Source of the DNA: Primorskyibacter sedentarius
GTDB lineage: Bacteria; Pseudomonadota; Alphaproteobacteria; Rhodobacterales; Rhodobacteraceae
Assembly: GCF_004342065.1 (NCBI RefSeq)
Contig: NZ_SLZU01000001.1
Span: forward strand, 124,001-188,000
DNA: 64,000 nt
Direction of reading: 5' to 3'
The notes beneath the pieces are model-generated. The model searched no databases and was not told the origin of the DNA. It saw only the letters and a list, made by a program, of their open reading frames with translations. Both the position numbers and the translations under genes were made by a program. Shown here one piece after another: positions 29,717 through 48,728 of the stretch (within the stretch, counting starts at the first letter, position 1; each line of letters starts with the position of its first letter).

Positions 29717-29745
29717 TTGACGAGTTGGGCGCATTTCTGGCATGG
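29717..29745 (+). promoter_or_regulatory. Candidate promoter of the cobalt-transport operon
   Basis: TTGACG at 29717-29722 and GCATGG at 29740-29745 are 17 bases apart. The -10 match is poor, but the predicted start near 29752 falls just before the riboswitch P1 helix, and the second riboswitch has the same layout with a GCAT-type -10 box. Confidence 0.35.
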
Positions 29746-29755
29746 ACCTTGGCAT

Positions 29756-29930: not shown

Positions 29931-30075
29931 TTGTGCCCTCGGAAAGGGCGCCTGAACCCGGCGTCGGGGAGTGCGCCTGATCCATTGTTCCGCTTGGAAA
30001 AATGGTTTTCCGCCTCCCCTTCGTCCAGAAAAACTGCGTGCCGGGTGTGGCATGATGGGACAAGGACGACATGAG

Positions 30076-32851: not shown

Positions 32852-33492
32852 TCCAGCTGGACGATATCCGCTTTGCCTATCCCGGGCACGAGGCCGTGCT
32901 GGACGGCGTGTCCCTGACGCTTCGGCAGGGGCAACGGCTGTCGCTGACCGGTCCGAATGGCGCTGGCAAGTCCACGCTGTTCCGCATCATGCTGGGGCTT
33001 CAACGCCCAGATGCGGGCCGCGTGACCGCGTTTGGCAAAGAGCGTCGGCAGGAGGCCGATTTTCACGAGGTCCGACGCCGCGTGGGCCTGGTGTTTCAGG
33101 ACGCGGACGATCAGCTTTTCTGCCCCACCGTGGCCGAGGATATCGCCTTCGGGCCGCTGAACCTTGGCAAATCGCGGGAGGAGGCGCTGGCCATCGTCGA
33201 CACGGTGCTGATCGATCTTGACCTGACCCACTTGCGCGATCGGATCACCCACAAGCTTTCAGGCGGCGAGAAGCGCCTTGTGACGCTCGCAACCGTCCTC
33301 GCGATGGAGCCTGAAGTGCTGCTGCTTGACGAACCCACCAACGCACTGGATTCCCGCAACGAGGCGCGCTTGCTGGAAATTCTGAACAGCCTGCCTCAGG
33401 CCATCCTGCTGGTCAGCCACAATCCCGACTTTCGCGCGCGCATCGCCCCGGAAGAAATACGTCTGGAAGACGGTCGTCTGCACGGGGCCTGA
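32842..33492 (+). CDS. cbiO: ECF transporter ATP-binding protein CbiO
   Basis: 216-residue ATPase with GPNGAGKSTL (Walker A), the Q-loop FQDADDQLF, LSGGEKRLV (signature) and LLLDEPTNALD (Walker B). It is shorter than the usual 270 residues because the C-terminal regulatory extension is missing. It powers the CbiMLQ complex. It is the last gene of the riboswitch-controlled operon and converges on cobF with a 42-base gap. Confidence 0.93.
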   Translation: MALIQLDDIRFAYPGHEAVLDGVSLTLRQGQRLSLTGPNGAGKSTLFRIMLGLQRPDAGRVTAFGKERRQEADFHEVRRRVGLVFQDADDQLFCPTVAEDIAFGPLNLGKSREEALAIVDTVLIDLDLTHLRDRITHKLSGGEKRLVTLATVLAMEPEVLLLDEPTNALDSRNEARLLEILNSLPQAILLVSHNPDFRARIAPEEIRLEDGRLHGA

Positions 33493-33534
33493 CGCCTGCC
33501 TGCATCAAGCCATTCCCGGTCAAACCCGCCCGGA

Positions 33535-34266
33535 TTACTGCTTCCGCAGCAGATAGGTATCCATGATCCAGCCGTGACGCGCCCGCGCCTCGGCCCGCAG
33601 CGCGATGATCTCGGGCTCGGCCGCGCGCAGGGGGCCGCTATGCAAAATCTGCTCTGGCATGCCCAGAAAAGCCCCCCACCAGATCTCCACCCCTTCGGGG
33701 TCGAGCGTGCGGAAACTGCATTCGCCGTCCAGCATCACGACCACCGTCTCTGCCCCTGCGGGCCAGCCGTGATCGCGCAGCTTGCGCCCCGTCGTCACCA
33801 CCACGGCGCCGTTCACCGTGTTGAACGGAATGGCATGCGCTGCGGTCAGCGCCTGAAGGGCCGTGATGCCCGGGATGACCCGCAGCCGCGGCGCGGGCGA
33901 CAGTCGCGCGGCGATCCGCAAGGTCGAATCGTAAAGCCCGGGATCCCCCCAGACAAGCAACGCAACCGGGCCGTCGGGGGCATCTTCCAGCGCAAATTGC
34001 CAGCGCGCTGCAATCTCGTCATGCCAACGGGCGACACGGTCCTGATACGGTAGGCTGTCATCGCGCACCGGCATGTCAAATTCGATCACCCTGGCGGTTG
34101 CGCCTGCCCCGTTCAGGATGGCGTGGCGCAGATGGGCCAGATCCTCTTTGCCCGCACCCTTGCGCGGGATCAGAACGGTGGTGGCGTCGCGCAGGGCATC
34201 GCGCCCTTCCAGCGTCACATGACCGGGATGCCCGGTTCCGATGCCGATCAACCAAAGCTCAGTCAA
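33535..34266 (-). CDS. cobF: Precorrin-6A synthase (deacetylating)
   Basis: 243-residue tetrapyrrole methylase that methylates C1 and removes the acetyl group from precorrin-5, a step specific to the aerobic B12 route. The GIGTGHPGHVTLEG start and WGDPGLYDS (SAM-binding Gly-rich loop) fit CobF. I prefer the TTG at 34266 (LTELWLIGIG), since GGGGGTG precedes it, it overlaps the cobA stop and homologues begin here; ATG 34296 would add ten poorly conserved residues. Last gene of the long minus-strand cob series. Confidence 0.92.
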   Translation of the reverse strand: MTELWLIGIGTGHPGHVTLEGRDALRDATTVLIPRKGAGKEDLAHLRHAILNGAGATARVIEFDMPVRDDSLPYQDRVARWHDEIAARWQFALEDAPDGPVALLVWGDPGLYDSTLRIAARLSPAPRLRVIPGITALQALTAAHAIPFNTVNGAVVVTTGRKLRDHGWPAGAETVVVMLDGECSFRTLDPEGVEIWWGAFLGMPEQILHSGPLRAAEPEIIALRAEARARHGWIMDTYLLRKQ

Positions 34267-34993
34267 TGCCCACCCCCATTTCGGCCAGCGGCCCATAAAG
34301 GATCAGCGCCGGGGTGGTGCCAATCTCTCCGGACAGTTTCTCAACCAGCCCCGCAATGGTCGAGCGATGCAGGCGCTGCTCGGGGGTGGAGACTGCTTCG
34401 GCCAACAACGCGGGCGTCTCGGGCGGCAATCCGCGTGCAGTCAGAAGTGCGGCAAGTTCCGGGAAGGTGCGCTTGCCCATGAATACCACGGTCGAGGCAC
34501 TCGGGTCTGCCAGCGCGTTCAGGTCGATATCCTCGGGCAATGTGCCTGCCGCGCCATGGCCGGTGACAAACTGCACCCGCCGGGCTGTCAACCGCCGTGT
34601 CAACGGGATGCCGCAGGCGGCGGCGGCCGCCACGGCAGAGGGCACGCCGGGGATGATTTCATATTCGATGCCCGCCTCGCGCAGGGCGGCCAGTTCTTCC
34701 TCCAACCGGCCAAACAACCCGCTATCGCCGGATTTCAGCCGCACGACGCGCTGTCCGGACCGGGCATAGTCGATCAGCAACCGGCTGACGTGATCCTGCT
34801 TTGGCGAGGCACGCCCCGCCCGTTTGCCAACGCCCACCAGATCCGCGTCGGGGTCGGCATGTTCAAGGATCGGGCCGGAAGACAGGTCGTCAAACAGCAC
34901 CGCATCGGCGCGGCGCAGACGGTCCACGGCCTTCAGCGTCAGCAATTCGGGATCGCCGGGGCCGGAGCCCACGAAGCTGACAAAACCGGTCAT
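34259..34993 (-). CDS. cobA: Uroporphyrinogen-III C-methyltransferase
   Basis: 244-residue SUMT, making precorrin-2 from uroporphyrinogen III, the entry to the corrin pathway. VGSGPGDPELLTLKA, LKSGDSGLFGR, GVPSAVAAAA and VVFMGKR are the family landmarks. It is the monofunctional type with no CysG dehydrogenase/chelatase part. ATG 34993 overlaps the cobB stop by 4 bases, and its end overlaps cobF by 8 bases. Confidence 0.95.
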   Translation of the reverse strand: MTGFVSFVGSGPGDPELLTLKAVDRLRRADAVLFDDLSSGPILEHADPDADLVGVGKRAGRASPKQDHVSRLLIDYARSGQRVVRLKSGDSGLFGRLEEELAALREAGIEYEIIPGVPSAVAAAAACGIPLTRRLTARRVQFVTGHGAAGTLPEDIDLNALADPSASTVVFMGKRTFPELAALLTARGLPPETPALLAEAVSTPEQRLHRSTIAGLVEKLSGEIGTTPALILYGPLAEMGVGID

Positions 34994-36300
34994 GCGCCCT
35001 CTCCGGTGATAAGGTGAAAGAACGTGCCGCTGACAGTGCCGCGCCACGAGCCGGTCTCGGGCACCGGATTGCCATCGGCGTCAAACACGTCCGCCAGCGG
35101 GGCGTCGGGCTGTTCCAGAATGGTGGAATAGTGGAACTCGTGCCCGCGCAGGGCAGCGCCCGCCGCATGGCCCGGCAGGGGCGACTTCAGCACCGCGCGG
35201 CGGTAGCCAAGGTGGAACTTGCGCTTTTCATAGCTGGTCACCAGACCCAGCAGACCGGCCATCCGGTGCGCCGTGCCGGCCTTGTCGATCAGGGTCTCGC
35301 CAAGCGCCATGTAGCCGCCGCATTCCCCATGCACGGGGCGCGTTTCGGCATGGCTGCGCAGGCCCTTGCGAAATCTGTCTGCCGCGGCCAGCTTGCCCGC
35401 GTGCAGTTCCGGATAACCGCCGGGCAGCCAGACCAGATCGGCAGAGGCATCGGGCGCCTGATCCGCGAGGGGCGAGAATGGCAGGATTTCGGCACCAGCC
35501 GCCCGCCAGCCTTCCAGAAGATGCGGATAGGTGAAGGAAAACGCCGCATCCTGTGCCAGCGCGATCCGCTGCGCGGGCGGGGTCGGCAAGGGGCCGCCGG
35601 GCACGATGGGTTTGCCGGATGCAGCCGCTTTGATCGCCTCCAGATCCACGTGATCGCGCAGGAATTGCGCGTAGCCCGCAATAGCTGCCTCAAGATCGGG
35701 ATGTTCGACCGCCTGGATCAGTCCCAGATGCCGTTCCGGCAGGGTCAGATCCCCTCGCCGGGGCAGCACGCCCAGAACCGGCAGGCCTGCGCGTTTCATC
35801 CCCAGACGGGTCAACCGTTCATGCCGGGGCGACGCGACCCGGTTCAGGATAACCCCGGCGAAGGGCAGATCGGGCATGTAGTTGCGAAACCCCAGCGCGG
35901 TGGCCGCCGCTGATTGCGCCTGCCCGCCCACATCCAGTACCAGCACGACCGGCCAGTTCATCCGCTTTGCGGTTTCCGCGCTGGTGCCAAAGCCGCTTTG
36001 GCCGCGCGTGGCAACCCCGTCATAAAGACCCATCGAGCCTTCGGCGATGCAGATATCCGCATCCGCAGCCTTGGCCGAGATCGCGGATAACAGCCCGTCA
36101 TCCATCGCCCATGTATCGATGTTATACGACGCCCGACCGGAGGCAGCGCGATGAAAGGCCGGGTCGATATAGTCGGGGCCGGATTTGAACGGCTGCACCG
36201 CGAGCCCGTCCTCCGCCAATGCCCGCAAGAGGCCCAGCATCACCGTTGTCTTGCCGGTGCCCGACGAGGGCGCAGAGATCAAAAGGCCGCGCATGCTCAT
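34990..36300 (-). CDS. cobB: Hydrogenobyrinic acid a,c-diamide synthase
   Basis: 436-residue glutamine-dependent amidase for two side chains of hydrogenobyrinic acid. The N-terminal dethiobiotin-synthetase-like ATP domain has [12 protein letters not shown] and [13 protein letters not shown]; the C-terminal GATase domain has the nucleophile Cys in [12 protein letters not shown] and His in GHEFHYS. ATG 36300 overlaps the cobM stop; a second in-frame ATG lies two codons later. Acts before cobalt insertion by CobNST. Confidence 0.95.
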
Positions 36301-37091
36301 TGCCCCTCTGGCGTCCAACCCGACCACGGGCTGTCAGAGCTTTGCGGTCGGTAGCGGCGATCGTAATCGACCGCATAAAGGCAGCTTTCATCGAACCCCT
36401 CGCCAGCCAGCGCCGGGCCAACAAGGATCAGCGCGGTGCGCTTGATGTCCTCGCCAAGGCGGTCCTCGATATCGGCCAAAGTTCCGCGCACGATCTGCTC
36501 ATCCGGCCAGCTTGCGCGATAGACCACGGCAACCGGGCAATCGGCGCCATAGGACGGGGTCAGGTCGGCCACCACACGCGTCAGGTTCTGCACCGACAGA
36601 TGAATGGCCAGCGTCGCGCCGGTCGCGGCAAAATTCGTCAGGGTTTCACCCTCTGGCATCGAAGACGCCCGCCCCGGCGTCCGCGTCAGCACGACTGATT
36701 GCGCCAGGCCGGGCAATGTCAGCTCTGTCCCCAGTGCGGCTGCGGCTGCGGCAAAGGCAGGCACGCCAGGCGTGACAGAGACCGGAATGCCAAGCGCCCG
36801 CAGGCGGCGCATCTGCTCGCCCATCGCCGACCAGACCGACAGATCGCCGGAATGCAGCCGCGCCACGTCCTGCCCCGCCGCATGCGCCGCTTGGATTTCC
36901 GCGACGATCTGATCCAGATCCAGCGGAGCCGTGTTCACGATGCGCGCGCCTTTGGGACAATGATCCAGAATGGCCTCTGGCACCAGAGAGCCCGCATAAA
37001 GGCAGACCGGGCAAGACGCGATGATATCGCGCCCGCGCAATGTCAGCAGGTCGGGCGCCCCCGGTCCGGCACCAATGAAATGAACGGTCAT
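36297..37091 (-). CDS. cobM: Precorrin-4 C(11)-methyltransferase
   Basis: 264-residue tetrapyrrole methylase: [18 protein letters not shown] at the start, [11 protein letters not shown] as the SAM loop, and [17 protein letters not shown]. It methylates C11 of precorrin-4. The ATG at 37091 overlaps the cobE stop. I use this ATG, not upstream in-frame starts inside cobE, because homologues begin MTVHFIGAG. Confidence 0.95.
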
Positions 37092-37456
37092 GTTGTCTCT
37101 CCTGCGGCCAAGGCACATGTGGCCATGCGATCGTTTGATATTACCCGGCCTTGCAAAAGCCGTGCGCCCGGCCCTGCGGCGCAAAGCGCTGCCGCCTCGG
37201 CGACGCTGCCTGTGCCCCGCGCGGCAATCGAGGCGGGCGCCTGCGTGGCGGTCTGCGGCGACTTCAGCGCAAGCGGCGGGATGGCATGCACCGGCAAGGC
37301 AAGCTCTTTGGCAAATGTCTGGAAGGCGGGGCTGGCTGCCTTGTCGGCGGCGGTTGCCAGAGCCGTCACCTGCCCGGCCCCACCCGCACGGCGCAGCGCA
37401 TCGTGCAGGCTGTCGACGCCCGCGGCAGAGCGGAACCCGAACCCGGCCACGATCAT
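37088..37456 (-). CDS. cobE: CobE, CbiG C-terminal-type cobalamin biosynthesis protein
   Basis: 122-residue protein matching the C-terminal domain of CbiG ([21 protein letters not shown] at the start, [12 protein letters not shown] at the end). In the aerobic pathway CobE is needed but its chemistry is not settled. ATG 37456 overlaps the cobL stop by 4 bases, placing it in strict coupling between cobL and cobM. Confidence 0.87.
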
Positions 37457-38652
37457 AGCGTCACGCTCCACTGCACAATCGGGTATGCGGCTTTCCACCC
37501 ACGCAGCTTGCCCAAGGGCGCCGCCTGCGCCAGATCGATCCGCATCAGATCACCGCCCAGCCTGCGCTGCGCCTGCGTCAGGATCGCTTCCGAGTCCAGC
37601 GTCACCGCATTGGCGACCAGCCGTGCGCCTTTCGCCAAGGTTTCGAGCTGTTCCAGCAGATCCAAAGACAGCCCGCCGCCGATGAAAACCGCGTCCGGAC
37701 GATCCAGACCTTGCAGCGCCTCCGGCGCCCTGCCTGTGATGACCCGCAAGCGGTCCATCCCCAGATGCGCTGCATTGCCGGTGATGCGATCCGCGCGATC
37801 CGCCTGCGCCTCGACGCAGGTGGCGCGCAGGGACGGGTCGGACAAAAGCCATTCAATCGCGATGGACCCGGACCCGCCGCCAATATCCCACAGATGCTCG
37901 CCCGCGCGCGGCGCGAGGGCTGACAGCGTCAACGCCCGCACCGGGCGTTTGGTGATCTGCCCGTCATGGTCGAACCAATCGTCTGGAATGCCGCTGGACC
38001 TGGGCAGGCAAGCGCCCTGCCCGGCCACCTCGATGGCGACGCAAAGCGGATGGTCAAAGCGCGCGTCCCTGCCCAGTCGCGAGGCTGCGACACTGGTGAT
38101 CCTTTCGCGCGGTCCGCCCAAGGCTTCCATCATATGCAGGATGCTGTCCCCGAACCCTTCGGCCGCAAGGTATTGCGCCAGCCCGTGCGGGCCTTCGCCG
38201 TCGCGCAGCGTTGCAATAAAACGAGCCTGCGGCGCGAGATGCCGCCGCAGCCGCGCAAAGGGGGCGGCATGCAGGCCCGTGCAAAATGTCGTCTCTAACC
38301 GCCAGCCCAGACGGTTGGCAGCCAGCGCAAAGCAGGACACACCCGGCAACGCGCGCCATTCTTCCGGCGCCAGATGCCGCGCGATCACCGCGCCTGCGCC
38401 AAACCAGAACGGATCACCCGAGGCCAGCACGGCAACACGCCGCCCCCGGAAGGAAAGCAACCGGTCAATGCCATCTGCAAAGGGCACGGGCCAGTCCACC
38501 CTCTGCGTCGAGAGTTCCGGCAAAAGCGACAGATGCCGCGGCGGCCCCATGACGATTTCCGCCGCCTTCAACGCGGCAAGGCTTGCAGGCGACAGCCCTT
38601 CCGGCCCATCTTCGCCCAAACCGATGATCGTCAGCCAGGGAAGATCAGCCAT
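37453..38652 (-). CDS. cobL: Precorrin-6B C5,15-methyltransferase (decarboxylating)
   Basis: 399-residue fusion of two methyltransferases. The N-terminal CbiE-like half has [16 protein letters not shown] and [11 protein letters not shown]; the C-terminal CbiT-like half has [15 protein letters not shown] (SAM site) and PDAVFIGGG. It methylates C5 and C15 and decarboxylates the C12 acetate. Its ATG at 38652 shares the palindrome CATG with the start of the divergent cobK gene. AGGAGG lies 9 bases upstream, inside cobK. Confidence 0.95.
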
Positions 38653-39406
38653 GACAGCAAACCTCCTGATCCTTGGAGGCACGACCGAAGCCACGGCCCT
38701 GGCGCTGCGTCTGGCCCAGACTGGCATACCGGGCACGCTGTCGCTGGCCGGCCGTGTCACGCGCCCCAAGCGGCAGCCCCTGCCGCTGCGGATCGGCGGG
38801 TTTGGCGGTGTCGAGGGGCTTAGGGCTTATCTGAAAGACAACCGGATCAGCCATGTTGTGGACGCCACCCATCCCTTTGCCGCACAGATGAGCCGCAACG
38901 CCATCGCAGCCTGCGCGCAGGCCGATGTTCCGCTGATCGCGCTCAGCCGCGCGCCGTGGGCGGCGCAGCCGGGGGATGACTGGCACCACGTCCGGGACAT
39001 TGCTGGCGCGGTTGCGGCGCTGGACCGCCCGGCATCGCGGGTGATGCTGGCTGTGGGCCGGATGCATCTGGCCGAATTCGCGCCGAACCCGCAGCATCGC
39101 TACCTGCTTCGGCTGGTCGATCCGCCAGAGGTGCCCCTGCCGCTGCCCGATGCACTGGTCATCGTGGAACGCGGGCCTTTTACGGTAGCAGGCGACCGCG
39201 CCCTGATGGAGGAGCATGGGGCAGAGCTTGTCGTCTCGAAGAATTCCGGCGGCTCGGGCGCTGTGGCCAAGATCACGGCCGCACGGGAACTGGGCCTGCC
39301 CGTCATCATGATCGACCGGCCCGCTTTGCCCGACAGGCGCGAGGTGTTCACCGTCGATGCTGTTCTGGACTGGCTGTCGCATCACAAGGCCGACCTCGGC
39401 GTGTAG
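38651..39406 (+). CDS. cobK: Precorrin-6A reductase
   Basis: 251-residue NADPH-dependent reductase making precorrin-6B. LILGGTTEATALALRLA binds the cofactor, with VDATHPFAAQMS and VVSKNSGGSGAVAKI as family landmarks. It is the only plus-strand gene in the middle of the minus-strand cob series. Its ATG overlaps the cobL ATG on the opposite strand by 2 bases, and its 3' end overlaps cobJ by 25 bases. GGGAAG about 8 bases upstream lies in cobL. Its promoter must be inside the cobL coding region. Confidence 0.95.
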   Translation: MTANLLILGGTTEATALALRLAQTGIPGTLSLAGRVTRPKRQPLPLRIGGFGGVEGLRAYLKDNRISHVVDATHPFAAQMSRNAIAACAQADVPLIALSRAPWAAQPGDDWHHVRDIAGAVAALDRPASRVMLAVGRMHLAEFAPNPQHRYLLRLVDPPEVPLPLPDALVIVERGPFTVAGDRALMEEHGAELVVSKNSGGSGAVAKITAARELGLPVIMIDRPALPDRREVFTVDAVLDWLSHHKADLGV

Positions 39407-40131
39407 ATGATGGGCGCGCCCGCGCGGCGGATGATCCGGGTGCGGGACGACCCGACCAGAACGACAGTGCGCATATCCGCCATATCGGCTGTGCAGTCAG
39501 GCAAGGGCACTACGCGGATCGACTCATCCGGGGTAGAAACAGCCCGCGCGAAGATCACCGGGCGGGCATCGCCGCAGGCCTCGTTCAGCACTTGCAGCGT
39601 ACGCTCAAACCCTTCGGGCCGGGATTTCGACCGCGGATTATAAAAGGCCATGGCGAAATCCGCCTCTGCCGCAAGACGAAGGCGCTTTTCGATAACCTGC
39701 CACGGTTTGAGGTTGTCGCTAAGATTGATGGCGCAGAAATCATGGCCCAGCGGCGCGCCGGCCCTCGCCGCCGCCGCCAGCATCGCCGTGATACCCGGCA
39801 GCACGCGAATATCCAGATCCCGCCACTCGGGCGCGCCCGCCTCGACCGCCTCGAACACGGCAGAGGCCATGGCGAAAACCCCCGGATCCCCGGAAGAGAC
39901 CACGACAACGCGCCGCCCTTCGGCTGCCATGGCAAGCGCATGGGCCGCGCGGTCCAGTTCGACCCGGTTGTCGCTGGCATGTTTCGTCAGGCCCGGCCGT
40001 TCCGGCACCCGCGCGACGTAAGGAATGTAGCCCACGATATCCGTGGCCTCCGCCAGCGCGTCGCTGACATCCGGCGTGACAAGGTCTTCCGCGCCGGGGC
40101 CAAGCCCCGCGATGATCACCCAGCCGCTCAT
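39382..40131 (-). CDS. cobJ: Precorrin-3B C(17)-methyltransferase
   Basis: 249-residue tetrapyrrole methylase that methylates C17 and contracts the ring. IIAGLGPGAEDLVTPDV at the start, VSSGDPGVFAMASAVFE and GITAMLAAAARAGAPLGHDF are typical, as is MAFYNPRSKSR. ATG 40131 overlaps the cobI stop. The 3' end overlaps cobK tail to tail. Confidence 0.95.
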   Translation of the reverse strand: MSGWVIIAGLGPGAEDLVTPDVSDALAEATDIVGYIPYVARVPERPGLTKHASDNRVELDRAAHALAMAAEGRRVVVVSSGDPGVFAMASAVFEAVEAGAPEWRDLDIRVLPGITAMLAAAARAGAPLGHDFCAINLSDNLKPWQVIEKRLRLAAEADFAMAFYNPRSKSRPEGFERTLQVLNEACGDARPVIFARAVSTPDESIRVVPLPDCTADMADMRTVVLVGSSRTRIIRRAGAPIIYTPRSAL

Positions 40132-40856
40132 GGACGCCGCCCCTGCCCGTGCACCACGATGATCGAGAAATAGGGCGTGACCTTGTCGGACGCCTCTGCC
40201 AGACGCGTCACCGTCTGCCCGGGCATGGAGGCATATTCGACGAGCCACGCCTGATTATACCGGCCCGCCTGCCGAAGGGCCCGCCGCACCTTGTCGATAT
40301 TGCGCCCGATCTTCATCACCACCAGCGCGTCTGTCTGCGCCATCCGGGTTGCAAGCTCGGCCTCGGGCAAGGTGCCCATCAGCACGGTCAACACGTCATC
40401 GCCCCATGTGATCGGCGTCCCGGTGGCCGTCCAGGCGCCGGACATGCCGGTTATTGCGGGTACGACCTCTACCGGCACATCGTCCTTGAGGCGCGTGTAA
40501 AGATGCATGAAAGAGCCGTAGAAAAACGGATCGCCTTCGCACAGCACCACAACATCCCGGCCCCCTTTGGCGAGGTCGCTCAGATGCGCGGTGCAGTCTT
40601 CGTAAAACGCGGCCAGCATCTGGTTATAGGCCGGATCGGTAAAGGGGATCTCTGTCGTGACGGGATATTCCATCGGGTATTCGACGGCGTCTTCGGGGAT
40701 CATCCGGTCGACGATCTGGCGCGCCTGCCCCTTGCGGCCGGCCTTGCGGAAATAGGCCACATGCTCTGCCTTGCGCAGCAGCCGGTCGGCGCGCACGGTC
40801 ATCAAGTCCGGATCGCCCGGACCAAGGCCAAGGCCATAGACAGTGCCCGCGCTCAT
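40128..40856 (-). CDS. cobI: Precorrin-2 C(20)-methyltransferase
   Basis: 242-residue tetrapyrrole methylase giving precorrin-3A. VYGLGLGPGDPDLMTVRA, LCEGDPFFYGSFMHLY and GITGMSGAWTATG are family landmarks. ATG 40856 overlaps the cobH stop by 4 bases and its stop overlaps cobJ. Confidence 0.95.
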   Translation of the reverse strand: MSAGTVYGLGLGPGDPDLMTVRADRLLRKAEHVAYFRKAGRKGQARQIVDRMIPEDAVEYPMEYPVTTEIPFTDPAYNQMLAAFYEDCTAHLSDLAKGGRDVVVLCEGDPFFYGSFMHLYTRLKDDVPVEVVPAITGMSGAWTATGTPITWGDDVLTVLMGTLPEAELATRMAQTDALVVMKIGRNIDKVRRALRQAGRYNQAWLVEYASMPGQTVTRLAEASDKVTPYFSIIVVHGQGRRP

Positions 40857-41482
40857 TCCTTACGGCTCGCGATGGCATTGATCGCGGCGACGGTGATGGC
40901 ACTGCCGCCAAGCCGCCCCGCCACGATGCAACAGGGCACGGGCTGATCGGCCCAAAGCGCCTCTTTGCTTTCCATCGCGCCGACAAAGCCCACCGGGCAG
41001 CCGATGATGGCCGCAGGGCGCGGGCAGTCCGGATCTTCCAGCATGTTGAGCAGATGAAACAGCGCCGTCGGCGCATTGCCTATCGCCACCAGCGCGCCTT
41101 TCAGCCGTGGCCGCCACAGTTCCAGCGCGGCGGCAGAGCGGGTGTTGTCCATCTCGCGCGCAAGCTCTGGCACCGACGGGTCGCGCAGGGTGCAGATCAC
41201 ATCATTCTTTGCGGGCAGTCGCGGTCGCGTCACCCCTTCGGAAACCATATAGGCGTCACACAGGATCGGCGCGCCACCTTCAAGCGCCGCCCGCGCAGTT
41301 TCGGCAAAGCCCGCCGTGAAACGGATATGCTCTTCCAGTCCAACCATCCCGGCCGCATGGATCATCCGCACGGCGATCTGTTCTTCATCCGGTGAAAACC
41401 GGGCCAGATCGGCCTCGGCGCGGATGGTGGCAAAGCTCTGGCGGTAAATCGCGGCGCCGTCTTTTTCGTAGTCGTAAGGCAT
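40853..41482 (-). CDS. cobH: Precorrin-8X methylmutase
   Basis: 209-residue isomerase moving the C11 methyl to C12 to form hydrogenobyrinic acid. The catalytic His is in RMIHAAGMVGLEEHIRF, with GNAPTALFHLL and GCPVGFVGAMESKEAL as landmarks. The start lies directly next to the cobG stop with no gap. Confidence 0.95.
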   Translation of the reverse strand: MPYDYEKDGAAIYRQSFATIRAEADLARFSPDEEQIAVRMIHAAGMVGLEEHIRFTAGFAETARAALEGGAPILCDAYMVSEGVTRPRLPAKNDVICTLRDPSVPELAREMDNTRSAAALELWRPRLKGALVAIGNAPTALFHLLNMLEDPDCPRPAAIIGCPVGFVGAMESKEALWADQPVPCCIVAGRLGGSAITVAAINAIASRKE

Positions 41483-42631
41483 CTATATGACCTCTTCGAG
41501 GTTCGTGATCTGTGCGGGGGTCAGCCCGCCTTGGCTGGGCTCTTCCCACGGTGCCCCGTTCAGGACAAGGTCGAATGCACCTTCCCGACCGACCAGCGTG
41601 ACATCTGCGGCGCGGGGAAACGCGCAGCCCTTGGCGCAACCCGACACATGCAGGCTGCCGGAAACCTGCGCGGCAAGCCGGCCCGCGATCTGTCGGGTCG
41701 CGACCGTCGCTTGCGGGCAGTAAGGCGCGCCCGGGCAGGCATGCGCCCGCAGGATGGGGTCGTCGGGTGAATGGACAAATTCCTGGGTCAGGCAGGGGGC
41801 CGTTCCGCCACGCAGCCAGAACATGCGCCCAAGCATCAGCCGCAAGGCAGGCGCGCCGGTCTCCTGCATCAGTACGGACAGGGCCGCGGCGTCGATCTTT
41901 CCAAACGCGGCCCCAAGGATGCTGCCACCGTTTGCAGGACCAATGGTGAACTCCGCTGCGGCACTGCACGGCGCGATAACCTGCCAATCACCGGGCAACG
42001 CGACCTGCGCCAGATGTCGCGCCATGCGGCCATGGTCCCGACCGCCCGTCGAAATGAACCACGCCGCCATTTCGCGCAGGGCATCCATGGCTGTGTCTTC
42101 TGAGACGGGTCGCCCCCGCGCCGCGCCATCGGCCCGCAGGATCAGCCCGCCCTCGTCACTAATCTCGAACCGGAAATCGGCCGAGCCTGCCCGAAGATGC
42201 GCGCCGCGCCCGGCATCCAGAGCGATCCCCATCTTTTCCGGCAGGTCCGGCAGATCGGGCAAGGTCGCAAGAACGGCCCCATACAAGCGATCCGTCAGGT
42301 CGCCATGCCGCCAATCAGGGTCGATCAGGATATTGCGATGGCCTTCGACGCGCGGATCGGAATCGATCAACCCCAACCCGTCCAGTTCGGCCAGCAGCGC
42401 GGCGTGATCTTCACCTGCGACGCCCCGGATCTGCAAATTGGCCCGGGAGGTCAAATCCAGCGTGCCATTGCCGAACCGCTGCGCCAAAGCGCACAGGCCA
42501 AGCGTCTGGTCACGGTCAAGCTCGGCCCGAAACGGCCGCACCCGCACCACCAGCCCGTCGCCCGACATCATCGGGCGATGTGCGCCGGGGCACCAGCCCT
42601 TGATCTGCGGATTGGCCGACGGGACACTCAT
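41483..42631 (-). CDS. cobG: Precorrin-3B synthase
   Basis: 382-residue sulfite-reductase-like mono-oxygenase that hydroxylates C20 and forms the gamma-lactone, the oxygen-dependent step. Four Cys in HACPGAPYC and SGCAKGC bind a 4Fe-4S/sirohaem-type centre. The presence of CobG rather than the flavoprotein CobZ distinguishes this locus from that of Rhodobacter capsulatus. ATG 42631 overlaps the cobN stop. Confidence 0.94.
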   Translation of the reverse strand: MSVPSANPQIKGWCPGAHRPMMSGDGLVVRVRPFRAELDRDQTLGLCALAQRFGNGTLDLTSRANLQIRGVAGEDHAALLAELDGLGLIDSDPRVEGHRNILIDPDWRHGDLTDRLYGAVLATLPDLPDLPEKMGIALDAGRGAHLRAGSADFRFEISDEGGLILRADGAARGRPVSEDTAMDALREMAAWFISTGGRDHGRMARHLAQVALPGDWQVIAPCSAAAEFTIGPANGGSILGAAFGKIDAAALSVLMQETGAPALRLMLGRMFWLRGGTAPCLTQEFVHSPDDPILRAHACPGAPYCPQATVATRQIAGRLAAQVSGSLHVSGCAKGCAFPRAADVTLVGREGAFDLVLNGAPWEEPSQGGLTPAQITNLEEVI

Positions 42632-45600
42632 TCCAGCGCCTCCAGCGAGGCCCGGACAGAGTTGCGGCGCGTCTCCCAAAGGCCCGCCTCAAGCAGCGCA
42701 TTGAAGCGGTCGCGCATCGCCTGGAATGCCTGCGGGTTGGCCTGTTGCAGAAAATCAGCCGTTGCCGGATCGCCAAGCGTGGCCTCGTGGTAAAGGTCGA
42801 AAAGATGCGGGCCGACCACACCGGCCAGATGCGCGAAGCTTGCCATATGGTCGAGTGTGGCGGCAATCTCCGCCGCCCCGCGAAAGCCGTGGTCGCGCAT
42901 ACCGGAGATCCAGTCCGGGTTGGCAGCGCGCGCCTGCACGACGCGGGCAATCTCTTCGGGCAAGCTGCGGGCACGGGGCGCCGCCGGATCGGTATTGTCG
43001 AGGTGCCATAAGGCGGATTTGCCGCCGGTGATGGCTTGCGCTGCGGCGAACCCCGCCTCATGCGCGGCATAGTCCGAAGCCAGCAGAAGATCGGTTTCCG
43101 GCAGGTCCTGCAAATGCACGAAACTGTCGGCGGCGGCCACGCGGGCGCGAATGCCAGCGCCGTCTTGCGTGGCGCTGTCGCCATCCAATGCCCAGGAGGA
43201 GGCTGACAGCCACGCCTCCCCTGCCTGCTGCCGCGCGCCTTCGGAATAGTCCTCAAGTGCCGCCCCCATGCCAAGGCCGAAACTGCCCGGGGCGGGCCCG
43301 TAAACGCGCGCCTCGTCGCGCCCGACAAAGGGGTTCCAGTCGGCTGCCTCGTCGCGCGCGGCCAAAGCCCGCACGGACTGGGCGAACAGGGCAGAAAGGG
43401 TCGGGAACACGTCGCGGAACAGGCCAGACACCCGCAGCGTCACGTCAATGCGGGGACGGTCGAGCTCTGCAATGGGCAGCACCTCGATCCCTGAAACACG
43501 CTCTGACCCTGTGTCCCAGACCGGGCGCACGCCCAGAAGATGCAGCGCCATGGCAAATTCCTCGCCAGCCGTGCGCATCGTGGCCGATCCCCACAGATCG
43601 ACGATCAGCCCGCGCGGCCAGTCGCCCTCGTCCTGCAGATGGCGGCGGATCAACTCCTCGGCCAGCCGCACACCCTGCGCATAGGCCGCGCGCGTGGGCA
43701 CCGATCGCGGATCAGTGGTATAGATGTTGCGGCCCGTGGGCAGCACGTCATTGCGCCCGCGATAGGGCGAACCCGACGGCCCGGCGGCGATGCGCTTGCC
43801 CTCCAGCGCGTCCAGCAGGGATTGCCGTTCGCCCGCCACCGACGCCTCTGTCGCAAAGGGCGCGCCCGGACGGGCCGGACGGCCCCAGATATGCAGGCCC
43901 TCGCCGAACTGGCTTTCCTTCACGTCGCAGACAAACCGGTCGATCCGGGTTATCGCCTCGGCCGAACAGGACGCGCTTGCAAGGCCAAGGTCATCCTCCA
44001 CCCCAAGCGCCTGCGCCTCTGCGCGGATATCATCCTGCAACCTGTCGCGGCGGCGTGGGTCAAGCCCGTCGGCGTTGGAGAACTCGTCCAGCAGAGCCTC
44101 CAGCCGTACCAGCCGGTCCGGCGTGCCGCTTTGCTTCAGAGGCGGAGGGATATGGCCCAGCGTGACAGCGCCAATCCGACGTTTGGCCTGTGCGGCCTCT
44201 CCGGGATCGTTGACAATGAACGGATAGATCACCGGCAGCTTGCCGGTCAGCACTTCGGGCCAGCATGCGCGCGACAGCGCAACCGATTTGCCCGGCAGCC
44301 ATTCCAGCGTGCCATGCGCGCCGATATGGACCAGCGCATCGGCCTGACGCTGAAGCCAGAGATAGAAGGCCACATAGGCGTGGCGGGGCGTACGCGAGAG
44401 GTCGTGATACTCGTCATCGCGCGCTTGGGGATTCCCGCGTTCGGGTTGCAGGGCGACCAGCGCTTTGCCCCGGCGGATCGCCGCAAAGCGAATATCGCCG
44501 TCCTGGCAGTCGGGGTCCTGCTCTGGCGCGCCCCAGATCTGGTGCAGCGCGTCCTGCAATTCGTCGGGGAGTTCGGCCAAAGCGGCCTTGTATTCCGCCA
44601 ACGGCCAGCGGGCATCGCGTGCAAGCAGCGCGTCCGAAAGCGGCTCCTCCGATCCCTCGACGTCGTATCCGTTCTCTGCAAGATCCGACAGGATCGCACT
44701 GGCCGAGGCGGGCGCGTCAAGCCCCACCGCGTGGCCCATGTTCCAGTCCTTGCCGGGATAGGTCGACAGGACCAGCGCGACGCGCCGGTTCGCGGCCGGG
44801 CTGCGGGCCAGATGCAGCCAGCCTTCGACCCTGTCCACCACCGCAGCGATACGCTCCGGCTCTGCCGCGTGGGCGAAACGGGCGAATTGCAGATCCTCGT
44901 CACGGGCGCCGGGTTGCTTGAAGGACACGACCCCGCCCAGAATCCGGCCATCAACCTCTGGCAACACGACATGCATCGCCAGATCAGTCGGGGACAACCC
45001 GCGCGGCGCCTCGTCCCACGCTTGTCGGGTCGAGGTCGCTAGTGCGACCTGAAACACCGGCACCCCGCCCGCATCAAGCGGAGAGCTGCCATCCTTGCCC
45101 CGCCCCGAAAAGGCCGTGGCGTTGACGATTGCGTCCGGCGCCAGATGGTTGATCTGGGTGCGAAGCCAGTCTGCCGCATCGGGCGCCTTGAGCGAGGGCA
45201 CATAAAGCGCCAGAACATCGTGGCCCCGCGCTTTAAAGCTGCGCATCAGGGCCTCTATTGGGGCGGTGTCGGCAGCGACAAGGTAGGACCGGTAAAAGGT
45301 GATCACGATGCGCGTGCCGGTTTTTGCAGGGAGATCGGCCGGATCATGGACGCCGCGTTCCGATGACCACGCACCCATCGGCGGCAAGGATTTGGACCCC
45401 GGCACCGGGCCTGCGTACAGCCCCGCCGCAAGTGACAGCTGCGCCAAAGCCGCCTGTGCCGCCACTACGCCGCCCGTGTCACACAGGTGGGCCAGTCGCC
45501 GCAGGGTGGAAACCGGCAGAGTCGATTCCGCATCCAACCGTGGATCGGGGCGGCCATCCGCGGGCAAGACCGCCAGTGCGATACCCTTTTCCTGCGCCAG

Positions 45601-45915
45601 CGCCCGCACCTGTTGCAACCCGTAAGACCAGTACGGCACGCCGCCGATCAGCCGGATCAGGATACCCTTCGCACCCGAAAGCGTCTGTTCGACATAGGTA
45701 TCGACCGACAGCGGATGTTTGAGCGCCACGAGATTGGCCAGACGCAGGGACGGCAAGCCGCCCGTCGGCCCACCGCCGCGATGCCACGCTTGCGCAAAGG
45801 CGCCAAGATCACTGTCAGAGAAGGACAGCACCACCAGATCCGCCGGGCTTTGGCCCAGGTCGGTCGGTGTCTCGGTTTCTTCGAGCCCGTGGCTCTCGCG
45901 AAAGATCACATGCAT
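42628..45915 (-). CDS. cobN: Cobaltochelatase large subunit
   Basis: 1095-residue CobN, the catalytic subunit of the ATP-dependent CobNST chelatase that inserts Co(II) into hydrogenobyrinic acid a,c-diamide. VHIGAHGTLEWLPGKS, DLWGSATMRTAGEEFAMALHLLG and MRDHGFRGAAEIAATLDHM are characteristic. CobS and CobT are not in the window, so they must lie elsewhere. ATG 45915 (MHVIFRESHGL) is chosen as the family start. 43 bases separate it from cobW. Confidence 0.95.
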   Translation of the reverse strand: MHVIFRESHGLEETETPTDLGQSPADLVVLSFSDSDLGAFAQAWHRGGGPTGGLPSLRLANLVALKHPLSVDTYVEQTLSGAKGILIRLIGGVPYWSYGLQQVRALAQEKGIALAVLPADGRPDPRLDAESTLPVSTLRRLAHLCDTGGVVAAQAALAQLSLAAGLYAGPVPGSKSLPPMGAWSSERGVHDPADLPAKTGTRIVITFYRSYLVAADTAPIEALMRSFKARGHDVLALYVPSLKAPDAADWLRTQINHLAPDAIVNATAFSGRGKDGSSPLDAGGVPVFQVALATSTRQAWDEAPRGLSPTDLAMHVVLPEVDGRILGGVVSFKQPGARDEDLQFARFAHAAEPERIAAVVDRVEGWLHLARSPAANRRVALVLSTYPGKDWNMGHAVGLDAPASASAILSDLAENGYDVEGSEEPLSDALLARDARWPLAEYKAALAELPDELQDALHQIWGAPEQDPDCQDGDIRFAAIRRGKALVALQPERGNPQARDDEYHDLSRTPRHAYVAFYLWLQRQADALVHIGAHGTLEWLPGKSVALSRACWPEVLTGKLPVIYPFIVNDPGEAAQAKRRIGAVTLGHIPPPLKQSGTPDRLVRLEALLDEFSNADGLDPRRRDRLQDDIRAEAQALGVEDDLGLASASCSAEAITRIDRFVCDVKESQFGEGLHIWGRPARPGAPFATEASVAGERQSLLDALEGKRIAAGPSGSPYRGRNDVLPTGRNIYTTDPRSVPTRAAYAQGVRLAEELIRRHLQDEGDWPRGLIVDLWGSATMRTAGEEFAMALHLLGVRPVWDTGSERVSGIEVLPIAELDRPRIDVTLRVSGLFRDVFPTLSALFAQSVRALAARDEAADWNPFVGRDEARVYGPAPGSFGLGMGAALEDYSEGARQQAGEAWLSASSWALDGDSATQDGAGIRARVAAADSFVHLQDLPETDLLLASDYAAHEAGFAAAQAITGGKSALWHLDNTDPAAPRARSLPEEIARVVQARAANPDWISGMRDHGFRGAAEIAATLDHMASFAHLAGVVGPHLFDLYHEATLGDPATADFLQQANPQAFQAMRDRFNALLEAGLWETRRNSVRASLEALE

Positions 45916-45958
45916 GTTTTTGCGTCCGGTGTGGTGGAGACATCCCCACCCTACGAAG

Positions 45959-47008
45959 TCATGCCGGTTCGGTCGCGCCAAGCGCGGCTTCGATCACGTC
46001 ACGGCGAATGTCGTCATGTTCAGCGATCACGACCAACCGGCCCTGCCGGGATTCGGCCCCTGTCCAGGGGCGGTCGAACTGATGCCGCACCCGTGCCCCG
46101 ACCGCTTGTACCAACAGGCGCATCGGCTTGCCCTGAACGGCGGCATAGCCTTTCACGCGCAGGATGTTGTGGTCATTCGCGAGCGCCTCGATCGCGCGTA
46201 CCAGCTGCGCCGGATCGGACAGTTCGGGAATATCGACAACGATGCTTTCGAAATCCTCGTGGTCGTGGTCATGCGCTTCGTCGTGGTGGCTGGGGCGCGC
46301 ATCCATGTCATCCTCGGCTGCGGCCTCCAGCCCCAGGATGATGCGCGGATCGATGACACCCTCGGCGACCTCGATCACCGGCAAGGTGCGCGGCGCCTCG
46401 GCGGCGATGATCGCCTTGGCCTTGGCCACGCCTTCAGGGCCCGCAAGGTCAGGCTTTGTCAGCAGCACGATATCGGCACAGGAGATCTGGTCCTCGAAGA
46501 CCTCGGACAGGGGCGTTTCGTGGTCGATGCTGTCATCGGCCTGCCGCTGCGCATCCACCGCCGCCACATTTGGCGCGAAACGACCCGCCGCAACGGCCTC
46601 GGCATCCGCGAGGGCAATCACGCCATCAACGGTGATCTTCGACCGGATATCGGGCCAGTCAAACGCCTTGAGCAGCGGTTTCGGCAAAGCCAGCCCGCTG
46701 GTCTCGATCAGGATGTGATCGGGACGCGGCTCCAGCGCCATCAGCGCCTCGATCGTGGGGATGAAATCGTCGGCCACGGTGCAGCAGATGCAGCCATTGG
46801 CCAGTTCCATGATGTTTTCGGCCGGGCAATCGGGGATCGCACAGCTTTTGAGGATCTCGCCATCGACGCCGACATCGCCGAATTCATTGACGACAATGGC
46901 AAGACGCTTGCCACCGGGGTTCTGCATCAGCTGACGGATCAGGGTGGTCTTTCCGGACCCCAGGAATCCGGTGACAACGGTTACGGGCAGCTTGGAGAAA
47001 TCAGTCAC
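45959..47008 (-). CDS. cobW: CobW-family G3E GTPase metallochaperone
   Basis: 349-residue GTPase. The P loop GFLGSGKTT (14-22), the metal-binding GCICC motif (Cys 73, 75, 76) and a His/Asp-rich stretch (about 225-245, HHDEAHDHDHED) are visible, with NKPD-like LLTKPDL. Position between DUF1636 and cobN under a B12 riboswitch suggests delivery of cobalt to CobN, as proposed for CobW; the zinc ZNG1-type role of relatives is the alternative. Confidence 0.93.
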   Translation of the reverse strand: MTDFSKLPVTVVTGFLGSGKTTLIRQLMQNPGGKRLAIVVNEFGDVGVDGEILKSCAIPDCPAENIMELANGCICCTVADDFIPTIEALMALEPRPDHILIETSGLALPKPLLKAFDWPDIRSKITVDGVIALADAEAVAAGRFAPNVAAVDAQRQADDSIDHETPLSEVFEDQISCADIVLLTKPDLAGPEGVAKAKAIIAAEAPRTLPVIEVAEGVIDPRIILGLEAAAEDDMDARPSHHDEAHDHDHEDFESIVVDIPELSDPAQLVRAIEALANDHNILRVKGYAAVQGKPMRLLVQAVGARVRHQFDRPWTGAESRQGRLVVIAEHDDIRRDVIEAALGATEPA

Positions 47009-47019
47009 GGGCGGGCCTC

Positions 47020-47421
47020 CTAGGCGGGATCAATGGGGTCAATCGGGGGGATACGCGCAATGCAGTTGCGCTTGAAATGCTCGGGCCGTTCGCGCCACGG
47101 GATCAGCCCGTCCGGCGTGGCATTGTAGCGGGACGCACCGTCCAGCAGCATCGCGGCTTGCGTGGTCTCGTCCAGCCCGCCGTAGACATAGGTCCAGCGG
47201 TTGCCGCCGCGCAGCGCAACGGTGCAGCCGGCCTCGCAGTTTTGCAGGCATTCAACGGCCCGCAAACGCACACCTTCGGGCAGCTCCCGCGCTGCCAGAT
47301 CGTCATACAGACGCTGGCCGGGGCGGCGCTCATCCTCGGGGGTTTCCTGTCCCCGGCGGCATTTCACGCAGACCAGAAGCTCTGTCTGGGCGATGCCCTT
47401 CGGGTCGTCGAGATCCTTCAT
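47020..47421 (-). CDS. DUF1636 metal-binding, thioredoxin-like ferredoxin family protein
   Basis: 133-residue protein with CVKC at 18-21 and C58-x3-C62-x3-C66 (ECLQNCEAGC), a spacing like that of 2Fe-2S thioredoxin-like proteins, plus an RNC near the C terminus. DUF1636 proteins often sit next to cobW and cobN. Role unknown; electron donor or metal handover to CobW are possibilities. It is the first gene after the second riboswitch, and ends 11 bases before cobW. A TCCTGC/GCAGGA inverted repeat in its leader could hide the weak AGGA ribosome site. Confidence 0.87.
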   Translation of the reverse strand: MKDLDDPKGIAQTELLVCVKCRRGQETPEDERRPGQRLYDDLAARELPEGVRLRAVECLQNCEAGCTVALRGGNRWTYVYGGLDETTQAAMLLDGASRYNATPDGLIPWRERPEHFKRNCIARIPPIDPIDPA

Positions 47422-47528
47422 GCGCGATCACGTGTCCTGCGTCGTTGGAACGGGGCAAAGTGCAGGATCGCCCGAAGAAAGGGCATTGAACCTGACACCA
47501 GAACACCCCGTCCGGTTGCGATGTCATT

Positions 47529-47716
47529 CAGCTGGCAGGTCTCCCGGCTTGCGGATCTCGATCAGGTGGTCCTGATCTGCGGTGCCCCGTCCTTCCCAGC
47601 CTGTCAGGCCAGTGGTTCGGAACCCTTTCCGGTCACGGTCGCGGGGGCGGCTGCTTTGACCCGAAGACGTTCAGGCGCTGCATTCCCTTTTCACCTGTTT
47701 ACACAGGCACCAGCTT
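47529..47716 (-). ncRNA. Cobalamin riboswitch controlling the main cob operon
   Basis: Read on the minus strand, the conserved blocks occur in order: AAAAGGGAATGCAG, CCGCCCCCGCGACCGTGACCGG, CCACTGGCCTG, CTGGGAAGG and the B12 box GGGAGACCTGCC. P1 can form between 47710-47715 (AGCTGG) and 47530-47535 (CCAGCT). It sits 108 bases upstream of the DUF1636 start. Cobalamin binding is expected to repress DUF1636-cobW-cobN and the downstream cob genes. Confidence 0.92.
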
Positions 47717-47722
47717 GATGCC

Positions 47723-47751
47723 AGATGCGCCTCAATCCTGGGGTTTGTCAA
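47723..47751 (-). promoter_or_regulatory. Candidate promoter of the riboswitch-controlled cob operon
   Basis: On the minus strand a perfect TTGACA (47751-47746) is followed after 17 bases by GCATCT (47728-47723). Initiation 7 bases further on falls at about 47716, exactly where the riboswitch P1 helix begins. The promoter occupies the short gap before the divergent cobO gene (ATG 47767). Confidence 0.5.
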
Positions 47752-47766
47752 GCAGAGGTCCGCGCC

Positions 47767-48378
47767 ATGAGCGATGAAATCACCGTCCGCCACAATGAGA
47801 AGATGCGCAAGATCAAGGCCGCGCGCGACAAGATGATGGAAACCAAGACCGAAGAAAAAGGCCTGATCGTGGTGCATACCGGGCCCGGCAAGGGCAAATC
47901 CTCTGCCGGGTTCGGCATGATCATGCGCTGCATCGCCCACGAGATGCCCGCGGCCGTCGTGCAGTTCATCAAGGGCAACTGGGACACGGGCGAGAAGACC
48001 TTCCTGCGCGAACGGTTTGCCAAGGAGGTACGATTCTTCGTCTCGGGCGAGGGGTTCACCTGGGAAACGCAGGACCGCGAGCGCGACATCGCGGCGGCGC
48101 AGAATGGCTGGAAGATCGCCAAGGAACAGATCCTTGATCCCGAAATCCAGTTCGTTCTGCTGGACGAGATCAACATCGCCCTGCGCTACGACTATATCGA
48201 TATTGACGAGGTGGTGGACTTTCTGCTGACCGAGAAACCCGCGATGACGCATGTCTGCCTGACCGGCCGCAATGCCAAGCCGGAACTGATCGAGGCGGCA
48301 GATCTGGTCACCGAAATGACCTTGCTCAAGCATCCGTTCCGCGATGGGGTCAAGGCGCAGAAGGGGGTGGAGTTCTGA
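47767..48378 (+). CDS. cobO: Cob(I)yrinic acid a,c-diamide adenosyltransferase
   Basis: 203-residue CobA/CobO-type corrinoid adenosyltransferase. The P loop HTGPGKGKSSAGFG and the later FVLLDEINIALRYDYID fit the family. It attaches the adenosyl group to the cobalt. ATG 47767 has GCAGAGG upstream. It is divergent from the riboswitch operon with only about 50 bases to the predicted transcription start, and it overlaps the next gene by one base. Confidence 0.95.
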   Translation: MSDEITVRHNEKMRKIKAARDKMMETKTEEKGLIVVHTGPGKGKSSAGFGMIMRCIAHEMPAAVVQFIKGNWDTGEKTFLRERFAKEVRFFVSGEGFTWETQDRERDIAAAQNGWKIAKEQILDPEIQFVLLDEINIALRYDYIDIDEVVDFLLTEKPAMTHVCLTGRNAKPELIEAADLVTEMTLLKHPFRDGVKAQKGVEF

Positions 48379-48728
48379 TGGCCGTCAAACGCCTGCTGAC
48401 AGAGTTCGGCATGGGAAGCTCCCTGCGCCGACAGGACTATACCGAGGCCGCCACCCGCGCCGTGAAAGACGCGCTGTGGCACAATTCGATCAATCTGGCG
48501 GAGCTTTTCGGCAAGCAAAAGACCGAGATGCAGATCACCGTGGATGTCGGCGTGGCCCAGCCCGACCGCGTGGATGTGGCGGCCGTCAAGGCGGTCTTTC
48601 CCTACGGGCAGGTCACCGTGAACGTCACCCAGGGCGGCCTGGACGTGCCCCGCCCCGACGGCGACGGCAATCCGACGGTCATGGCCAATGTGGCAATCTC
48701 TGTCGCACTTGATGTGGAGGGTGCATGA
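48378..48728 (+). CDS. Lin0512 family protein, first tandem copy
   Basis: 116-residue cytosolic protein of the Lin0512 family. It begins VKRLLTEFGMGSSLRRQDYT and has ITVDVGVAQPDRVDV and a C-terminal VTQGGLDVPRPDG. Function unknown. It is paralogous to the next gene: both share the FGMG/EMGMG start, an ALxHNSI/ALRHSSI helix and a GGL motif. It starts one base inside cobO and ends overlapping the second copy, so all four genes cobO-Lin0512-Lin0512-cobQ are one unit. Confidence 0.85.
   Translation: MAVKRLLTEFGMGSSLRRQDYTEAATRAVKDALWHNSINLAELFGKQKTEMQITVDVGVAQPDRVDVAAVKAVFPYGQVTVNVTQGGLDVPRPDGDGNPTVMANVAISVALDVEGA

Follow-up and report, generated by a model that had tools for sequence, protein, structure and literature searches.

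The 64,000-nucleotide (nt) stretch of the Primorskyibacter sedentarius genome analysed here (contig NZ_SLZU01000001.1; hereafter, the window) carries a long minus-strand series of cobalamin (cob) genes, into which one gene of the opposite strand, cobK, is inserted between cobJ and cobL. In minus-strand order, the series consists of a riboswitch, a DUF1636 gene, cobW, cobN, cobG, cobH, cobI and cobJ, followed by cobL, cobE, cobM, cobB, cobA and cobF. Gene identities were assigned by NCBIfam and Pfam profile matches, with cobG matching only below the NCBIfam cut-off. An initial annotation had described a lone cobK that overlaps cobJ by 25 nt and cobL by 2 nt, and our coordinates agree: the 3' ends of cobK and cobJ overlap by 25 nt, and the starts of cobK and cobL overlap by 2 nt via a common CATG. 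The key feature of the locus, which that annotation missed, is an open reading frame (ORF) antisense to cobK, here called the bridge. The features around cobK are as follows.

38651 to 39406, plus strand: cobK, precorrin-6A reductase, 251 amino acids (NF005968, 1.3e-100; Pfam CbiJ, 3.1e-75)
39382 to 40131, minus strand: cobJ, precorrin-3B C17-methyltransferase (TIGR01466, 1.7e-84)
37453 to 38652, minus strand: cobL, precorrin-6Y methyltransferase, CbiE plus CbiT (TIGR02467 and TIGR02469, both above cut-off)
38645 to 39385, minus strand: bridge ORF, 246 amino acids from GTG at 39385 or 245 from ATG at 39382, stop TGA at 38647-38645 (from the ORF list)
39382 to 39385, minus strand: GTGA, the bridge start overlapping the cobJ stop TGA; the next ATG in the same frame is at 39382-39380
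38645 to 38652, minus strand: ATGGCTGA, the bridge stop overlapping the cobL start codon
38650 to 38653, both strands: CATG palindrome with the start codons of cobK (plus) and cobL (minus)

The minus strand opposite cobK is thus a single ORF (39385-38645) that begins at the cobJ stop and reaches the start of cobL, where it ends with a TGA 8 nt inside cobL. Its frame differs from those of both cobJ and cobL. Bridge codons are aligned with cobK codons, so only a TTA, CTA or TCA codon in cobK (reverse-stop codons, that is, stops in the bridge frame) would interrupt it.

To characterize this arrangement, we used 305 loci, every one of which was found through cobK. They came from samples of the class, the family and the phylum, together with 80 named loci, nearly all of which are Rhodobacterales according to their titles. 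The embedded layout, defined as cobK antisense between cobL and cobJ, was present in 210 of them, including the window's own locus, and these contained 200 distinct cobK sequences. By sample, it was found in 18 of L001-L055 (the class sample, 55 loci from 54 genomes with cobK), 78 of L056-L163, 35 of L164-L225 and 79 of the 80 named loci. The exact CATG start overlap occurred in 162 of the embedded loci. As judged from its recurrence among these sequences, the embedded layout is not due to chance. Ten plasmid loci were also picked from the 40 listed of 267 matching records. Nine showed the same gene order (Paracoccus, two Sphingobium, Bradyrhizobium, Sinorhizobium, Methylorubrum, two Rhizobium and Pseudosulfitobacter), and the Caballeronia plasmid had a different one. 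The bridge was stop-free on the plasmids of Paracoccus, both Sphingobium, Bradyrhizobium, both Rhizobium and Pseudosulfitobacter; a single frame stop was present before the script-called cobL start in Sinorhizobium (4 nt) and Methylorubrum (64 nt). None of the seven plasmid loci with a gene table here, a table known to be incomplete, had the bridge annotated.

Both ends of the bridge had a recurrent form. It started as ATGA or GTGA over the cobJ stop in 190 of the 210 embedded loci and stopped 8 nt inside cobL in 166; both ends were standard in 158 (one TTG start counted), and a looser geometry definition gave an intact bridge in 199. The cobK codon that forms the bridge start was CAT in 158, CAC in 24 and another codon in 9 of the 191 loci examined, as compared with 873 CAT and 658 CAC among the other cobK histidine codons (Fisher p 2e-16, relatedness ignored). 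At the other end, codon 2 of cobL, which helps make the bridge TGA, was TCT in 85 and GCT in 55 loci (together 140 of 210), yet within cobL codons 4-60 TCT accounted for only 53 of 605 serine codons and GCT for 144 of 1,621 alanine codons. The strongest windows of synonymous conservation were the two junctions themselves (cobK codons 244-249, z 4.9; cobL codons 1-6, z 4.3). These sequence comparisons show a biased choice of codons at the start and stop of the bridge. Separately, cobL codons 85-90 showed unexplained synonymous conservation in the 79 named embedded loci (z 3.5).

We then measured the reverse-stop codons of cobK against counts expected from codon usage in 11 further cob genes at each locus. 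Across the 79 named loci, CTA was seen 0 times (49.5 expected), TTA 0 times (22.1) and TCA once (40.7), that is, 1 codon in total versus about 112. The ratios for the other 58 sense codons of cobK ranged from 0.66 to 1.56, none being lower than 0.66, and in the same test eight neighbour genes contained 65-310 reverse-stop codons each (ratios about 0.5-1.3). The bridge frame was stop-free in 191 of the 210 embedded loci and in all 79 named ones, and the other two antisense frames contained on average 5.3 and 4.4 stops (5.2 and 4.3 in the named loci). It was stop-free even at a G+C content of 0.50-0.54 (L131, L125, L023 and L270), with 5-18 stops in the two remaining antisense frames. A reverse-stop codon occurred within the covered part of cobK in 19 loci: 11 of these had just one, at codons 2-8 (the bridge end), and eight (seven distinct) were broken in the body. 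Shared ancestry is a poor explanation of the depletion, because third-base identity between loci averaged only 0.064 over the codon-usage prediction. When loci were thinned to less than 75% identity between cobK proteins, 142 remained, with 49 reverse-stop codons seen and 211.6 expected (126 open frames versus 62.5 expected); thinning to less than 65% left 63 loci, with 39 seen and 122.7 expected (54 open versus 25.1). Compared in these ways, the sequences show that the openness of the bridge frame is selected.

A natural experiment is offered by cobK genes that lie elsewhere (loci with fewer than 200 other cob codons were dropped). Within the same family, embedded cobK had 5 reverse-stop codons versus 110.1 expected (all 78 loci usable), whereas cobK elsewhere had 47 versus 44.6 expected, with no depletion (28 of 30 loci usable). 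The depletion is therefore tied to the embedded position and not to cobK as a protein. With identical cobK sequences removed from all loci, the values were 45 seen and 295 expected for 200 embedded loci, and 164 and 155 for cobK elsewhere (66 of 77 usable), a group that takes in a few possibly embedded loci with one neighbour cut off or unrecognised (L004, L007, L206, L215 and L230). Where cobK stood beside a co-directional cob gene, 55 were seen and 61 expected (15 of 16 loci usable). As a group, cobK genes outside the cobJ-cobL place have not lost their reverse-stop codons. The contrast was weaker in the class sample: 29 seen and 39.4 expected in the 18 embedded loci (16 open versus 7.4 expected), with all 29 coming from L010 and L026, and 93 seen and 95.5 expected for cobK elsewhere (27 of 36 usable).

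A second gene order was considered as a sign that cobK is antisense as a class-wide rule and was rejected: in the loci examined (L031, L036 and L133), cbiD and cobK form a one-strand pair. Since such a pair is not embedded singly, these loci served as controls; in L031 (3980-5835), the cbiD-coupled cobK is flanked by cobM and cobA, both of which lie on the opposite strand. Two or three cobK matches were found in 20 of 199 family genomes, and genome G131 has one cobK in the embedded position (L025) and another elsewhere (L054), a possible internal control.

Candidate signals for initiation were observed on both sides of the cobK-cobL junction.

38583 to 38588, plus strand: TTGCAG, -35-like element of a proposed cobK promoter in cobL (CTTGC at 38582-38586)
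38607 to 38612, plus strand: CATCTT, -10-like element, 18 nt 3' of the -35-like element (from position frequencies in 141 loci)
38661 to 38667, minus strand: AGGAGGT, Shine-Dalgarno-like sequence for cobL, within cobK

CTTG is typical of the -35 box in alphaproteobacterial promoters. It occurred at -80 to -55 of cobK, within cobL, in 141 of the 162 CATG loci, versus 4.3% of 3,059 control windows. Codon 23 of the cobL alignment was GCA in all 74 named loci (of 79) with alanine there. In the 141 CTTG-aligned loci the -10-like hexamer had frequencies of C 97, A 92, T 96, C 93, T 73 and T 95%, although this conservation is partly forced by conserved cobL residues. Synonymous conservation in the promoter region of cobL reached only z 2.7, below several windows elsewhere, and the promoter claim therefore rests on single positions and the CTTG count. 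A generic scan of 33000-48500, which also missed the proposed cobK promoter, gave 0 promoter-like sites versus 1.7 in shuffles and 7 terminator-like sites versus 10.6. Between cobK and cobL, no Rfam RNA reached the gathering threshold in 20 chosen loci. Read most naturally, the sequence patterns have cobK transcribed from a promoter of its own within cobL, and cobL relying on read-through. On the plus strand behind cobK (after 39406), no terminator-like site was found close by, the nearest being at 39964 within cobJ; the cobK transcript may therefore run antisense into cobJ.

We consider it likely that the bridge is a pass-through frame, translated and kept open, which carries the riboswitch-led operon across the antisense strand of cobK, with cobK expressed from its own promoter. 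RNA polymerase transcribing the minus operon would continue straight across cobK. Ribosomes leaving cobJ would re-initiate at the overlapping bridge start, cross about 730 nt of antisense RNA behind the polymerase and re-initiate at cobL, and cobK would be expressed from the promoter within the start of cobL. The frame would be kept open for translation itself, which most simply avoids Rho-dependent polarity and couples the translation of cobL. Rho targets untranslated RNA in a wide range of bacteria, and polarity in its classic form is seen after premature stop codons (PMC13323073). An antisense stretch of 730 nt within an operon would be a case of this kind, which the bridge would resolve. 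Transcription, translation and Rho as the selective agent are all three inferred. The initial annotation had proposed that the minus transcript passes through cobK antisense, and this read-through is well supported by sequence evolution: the frame between cobJ and cobL is kept open, no conserved cobL promoter was found in cobK, and a cobK promoter-like element lies in cobL. A separate argument from Rho sites (rut, Rho utilization) was dropped, as the antisense cobK RNA had a mean (C-G)/length of -0.002, that is, no excess of C over G.

Several observations weigh against this interpretation. First, the loci are related, hence the p value and the Poisson-type expectations overstate certainty. 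When thinned to less than 55% cobK identity, the 18 remaining loci had 35 reverse-stop codons versus 49.7 expected (13 open versus 6.9 expected); 34 of the 35 came from L010, L026, L082 and L186. Second, no particular Rho site was identified in the antisense RNA, with its lack of C-over-G excess, and the Shine-Dalgarno-like sequence before cobL could permit independent initiation. Finally, 11 of the 210 embedded loci had no intact bridge by geometry, eight of which (seven distinct, L181 being a repeat of L010) had stops in the frame body. L026 (G+C content 0.45, 13 reverse stops) and L082 (0.51, three) have tight junctions at both ends and no bridge, and they count against a strict bridge rule. 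L187, with four reverse stops, has no room between cobK and cobL and likewise no bridge. Other bridge-less loci have a wide gap between cobK and cobL: 118 nt in L010/L181 (one sequence, G+C content 0.40), 108 in L186, 145 in L200 and 76 in L123. A wide gap was rejected as a rule for bridge loss, the bridge being kept in 11 of the 16 loci with more than 50 nt. In L092, L302, L103 and L187, 101-278 nt separate cobJ and cobK, and the cobK genes of the first three have no reverse stop.

Among other explanations, it is possible, if rather doubtful, that the same translated bridge is maintained not because of Rho but to deliver ribosomes to cobL by termination-reinitiation, or to shield the RNA from pairing with cobK mRNA and ribonuclease III (RNase III). 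The position of the bridge stop 8 nt inside cobL, achieved via an unusual T-ending second codon, fits ribosome delivery, as does the absence of a C-rich Rho signature. However, coupling needs just a short ORF ending at cobL, and the frame is open across the whole 730 nt; delivery is also compatible with Rho acting as well.

An unlikely alternative is that cobL and the genes after it use their own promoter inside cobK and that the cobJ transcript terminates early. A coding sequence can conceal a promoter, as cobL seems to do for cobK, and the bridge was missing in 5 of the 16 loci whose cobK-cobL gap exceeds 50 nt versus 6 of the 194 with less. On the other hand, neither a strong synonymous block in cobK (best window z 2.1, codons 13-18) nor a position-fixed CTTG, TTGAC or TTGC within 150 nt upstream of cobL was found (at most 11 of 162 loci at one position). 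In the scan, no terminator-like site could be observed on the minus strand between the stop of cobJ and the start of cobL. Moreover, the stop-free frame and its start would be left unexplained. The point of the initial annotation that there is no space for a free promoter before cobL is no proof, since a promoter can sit in coding sequence, as the one for cobK apparently does in cobL.

Still less probable is that the bridge is a true overlapping gene with a functional protein, even though its frame is long and conserved and starts and stops at operon-like places. Four-fold-site divergence of cobK was 0.559, inside the range of nine neighbour genes (0.516-0.579), and bridge-protein identity was 0.043 above a synonymous re-draw of cobK, with 0.039-0.076 for pseudo-antisense frames of four neighbours. 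Purifying selection on the antisense protein, as in a functional overlapping gene pair, was thus found neither at four-fold sites nor in re-draw identity. Up to E 1, no family of Pfam or NCBIfam matched the bridge protein, and it was predicted to be unfolded: AlphaFold2 gave a mean predicted local distance difference test (pLDDT) score of 33.4 and a predicted template modelling (pTM) score of 0.11 (26 sequences), versus a mean pLDDT of 89.6 for cobK (19 sequences). By these comparisons the bridge protein shows no more conservation than cobK and ancestry account for, and the selected trait seems to be the act of translation, not the product. Least credible of all is a plain noncontiguous operon with an untranslated antisense stretch in which GC-rich codon usage incidentally leaves the frame open: genes lacking the three codons are indeed common at high G+C content (in a 464-kb part of this genome, 125 of the 397 called genes, and 70 of the 299 that have 200 codons or more), and the frame is unremarkable for the window taken alone, but the depletion across loci is codon-specific, it is absent from same-family cobK elsewhere, and the frame stays stop-free at a G+C content of 0.50-0.54.

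The initial annotation had compared the locus with noncontiguous operons of Staphylococcus. The comparison stands for the layout: as in menE-menC-MW1733-ytkD-MW1731 of Staphylococcus aureus, an opposite-strand gene lies within a same-strand series and antisense read-through is expected, with cobK between opposite-strand cobJ and cobL in the 210 of 305 loci. For the Staphylococcus operon, the antisense overlap is reported to be an internal untranslated region, accompanied by reciprocal repression and cleavage by RNase III (PMC7154746); by contrast, the cob stretch appears as a selected ORF joined to both neighbours by coupled-looking ends, conserved in 199 of the 210 loci. It is probably translated, and the operon may be contiguous for ribosomes. 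In Dickeya dadantii, 83 noncontiguous-operon units have been reported (PMC9239193). Like nog1, laoB and pop of Escherichia coli, the bridge is a long ORF antisense to a known gene; for such genes, functional protein products have been argued, and they tend to be young (PMC7457138), whereas the bridge is widespread in the class and lacks protein-level conservation. Overlaps of the ATGA/GTGA type known from translationally coupled genes are present at both bridge ends, as at several neighbouring cob junctions, but here the coupled ORF is the antisense of another gene and apparently has no useful product. In leader peptides and translated spacers, translation counts and the product does not. The bridge differs from them in its length of 245 codons, its intercistronic place and its position antisense to a gene that encodes an enzyme.

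The cob bridge is therefore best described as a variant of known layouts, although it may well prove to be an element of a new kind. We lean towards the view that such a pass-through ORF, selected only to stay open so that ribosomes escort the polymerase through the antisense of an embedded gene, is an undescribed kind; none was recognised in the open-licence literature, seen mostly as titles and abstracts, which does not imply absence from print. Each of the two strands would then carry a full-length coding layer, of which one specifies a protein and the other serves only the passage of ribosomes. If this is true, a bacterial operon can take in an opposite-strand gene with translation of the remainder kept, and the antisense frame of an enzyme gene can come under selection solely to let ribosomes pass. 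Open antisense frames need not signal hidden proteins, and synonymous recoding of cobK could harm cobL expression. The loss of TTA, CTA and TCA is a codon signature searchable in any genome for read-through of embedded genes, to which the same openness rule may apply, and the locus offers a system in which to study Rho polarity and the coupling of transcription to translation in Alphaproteobacteria.

The remaining features of the operon are listed below.

47517 to 47729, minus strand: Cobalamin riboswitch heading the operon (Rfam RF00174, 95.3 bits)
47020 to 47421, minus strand: DUF1636 gene, first in the operon (Pfam PF07845, 2e-35)
45959 to 47008, minus strand: cobW (TIGR02475)
42628 to 45915, minus strand: cobN (NF008973)
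41483 to 42571, minus strand: cobG, start codon uncertain, crude gene call (TIGR02435, 195.7 bits, below the cut-off of 234.8)
40853 to 41482, minus strand: cobH (NF006136)
40128 to 40856, minus strand: cobI (NF004647)
37088 to 37456, minus strand: cobE, CbiG C-terminal domain (Pfam PF01890; start by crude gene call)
36297 to 37091, minus strand: cobM (TIGR01465; start by crude gene call)
34990 to 36300, minus strand: cobB (NF002204; start by crude gene call)
34259 to 34993, minus strand: cobA, uroporphyrinogen-III C-methyltransferase (NF004790; start by crude gene call)
33535 to 34296, minus strand: cobF, start codon uncertain (TIGR02434)

The RF00174 match (47729-47517) bears out the single riboswitch previously placed at the head of the minus series. 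The overlaps proposed for all minus-strand junctions were present at several of them, but gaps of 11 and 43 nt separate DUF1636 from cobW and cobW from cobN, and cobG and cobH abut. A second Cobalamin riboswitch in the window (29742-29943, plus strand, 124 bits) lies upstream of the cobalt transport genes cbiQ (32063) and an ABC ATPase (32722). In a record titled as a metagenome-assembled genome of Anaerolineae, we found a Rhodobacterales-like cobK locus (L232) with 69% identity to the query, possibly due to a binning error. When 464 kb of the 5.07-Mb genome were surveyed with a crude gene caller, only one other tightly embedded single gene was found besides cobK. This crude call (L323; G000:C1:424128-424442, plus strand) has about 104 codons; among the 103 counted, two are reverse-stop codons, and hence there is no bridge in the aligned frame.

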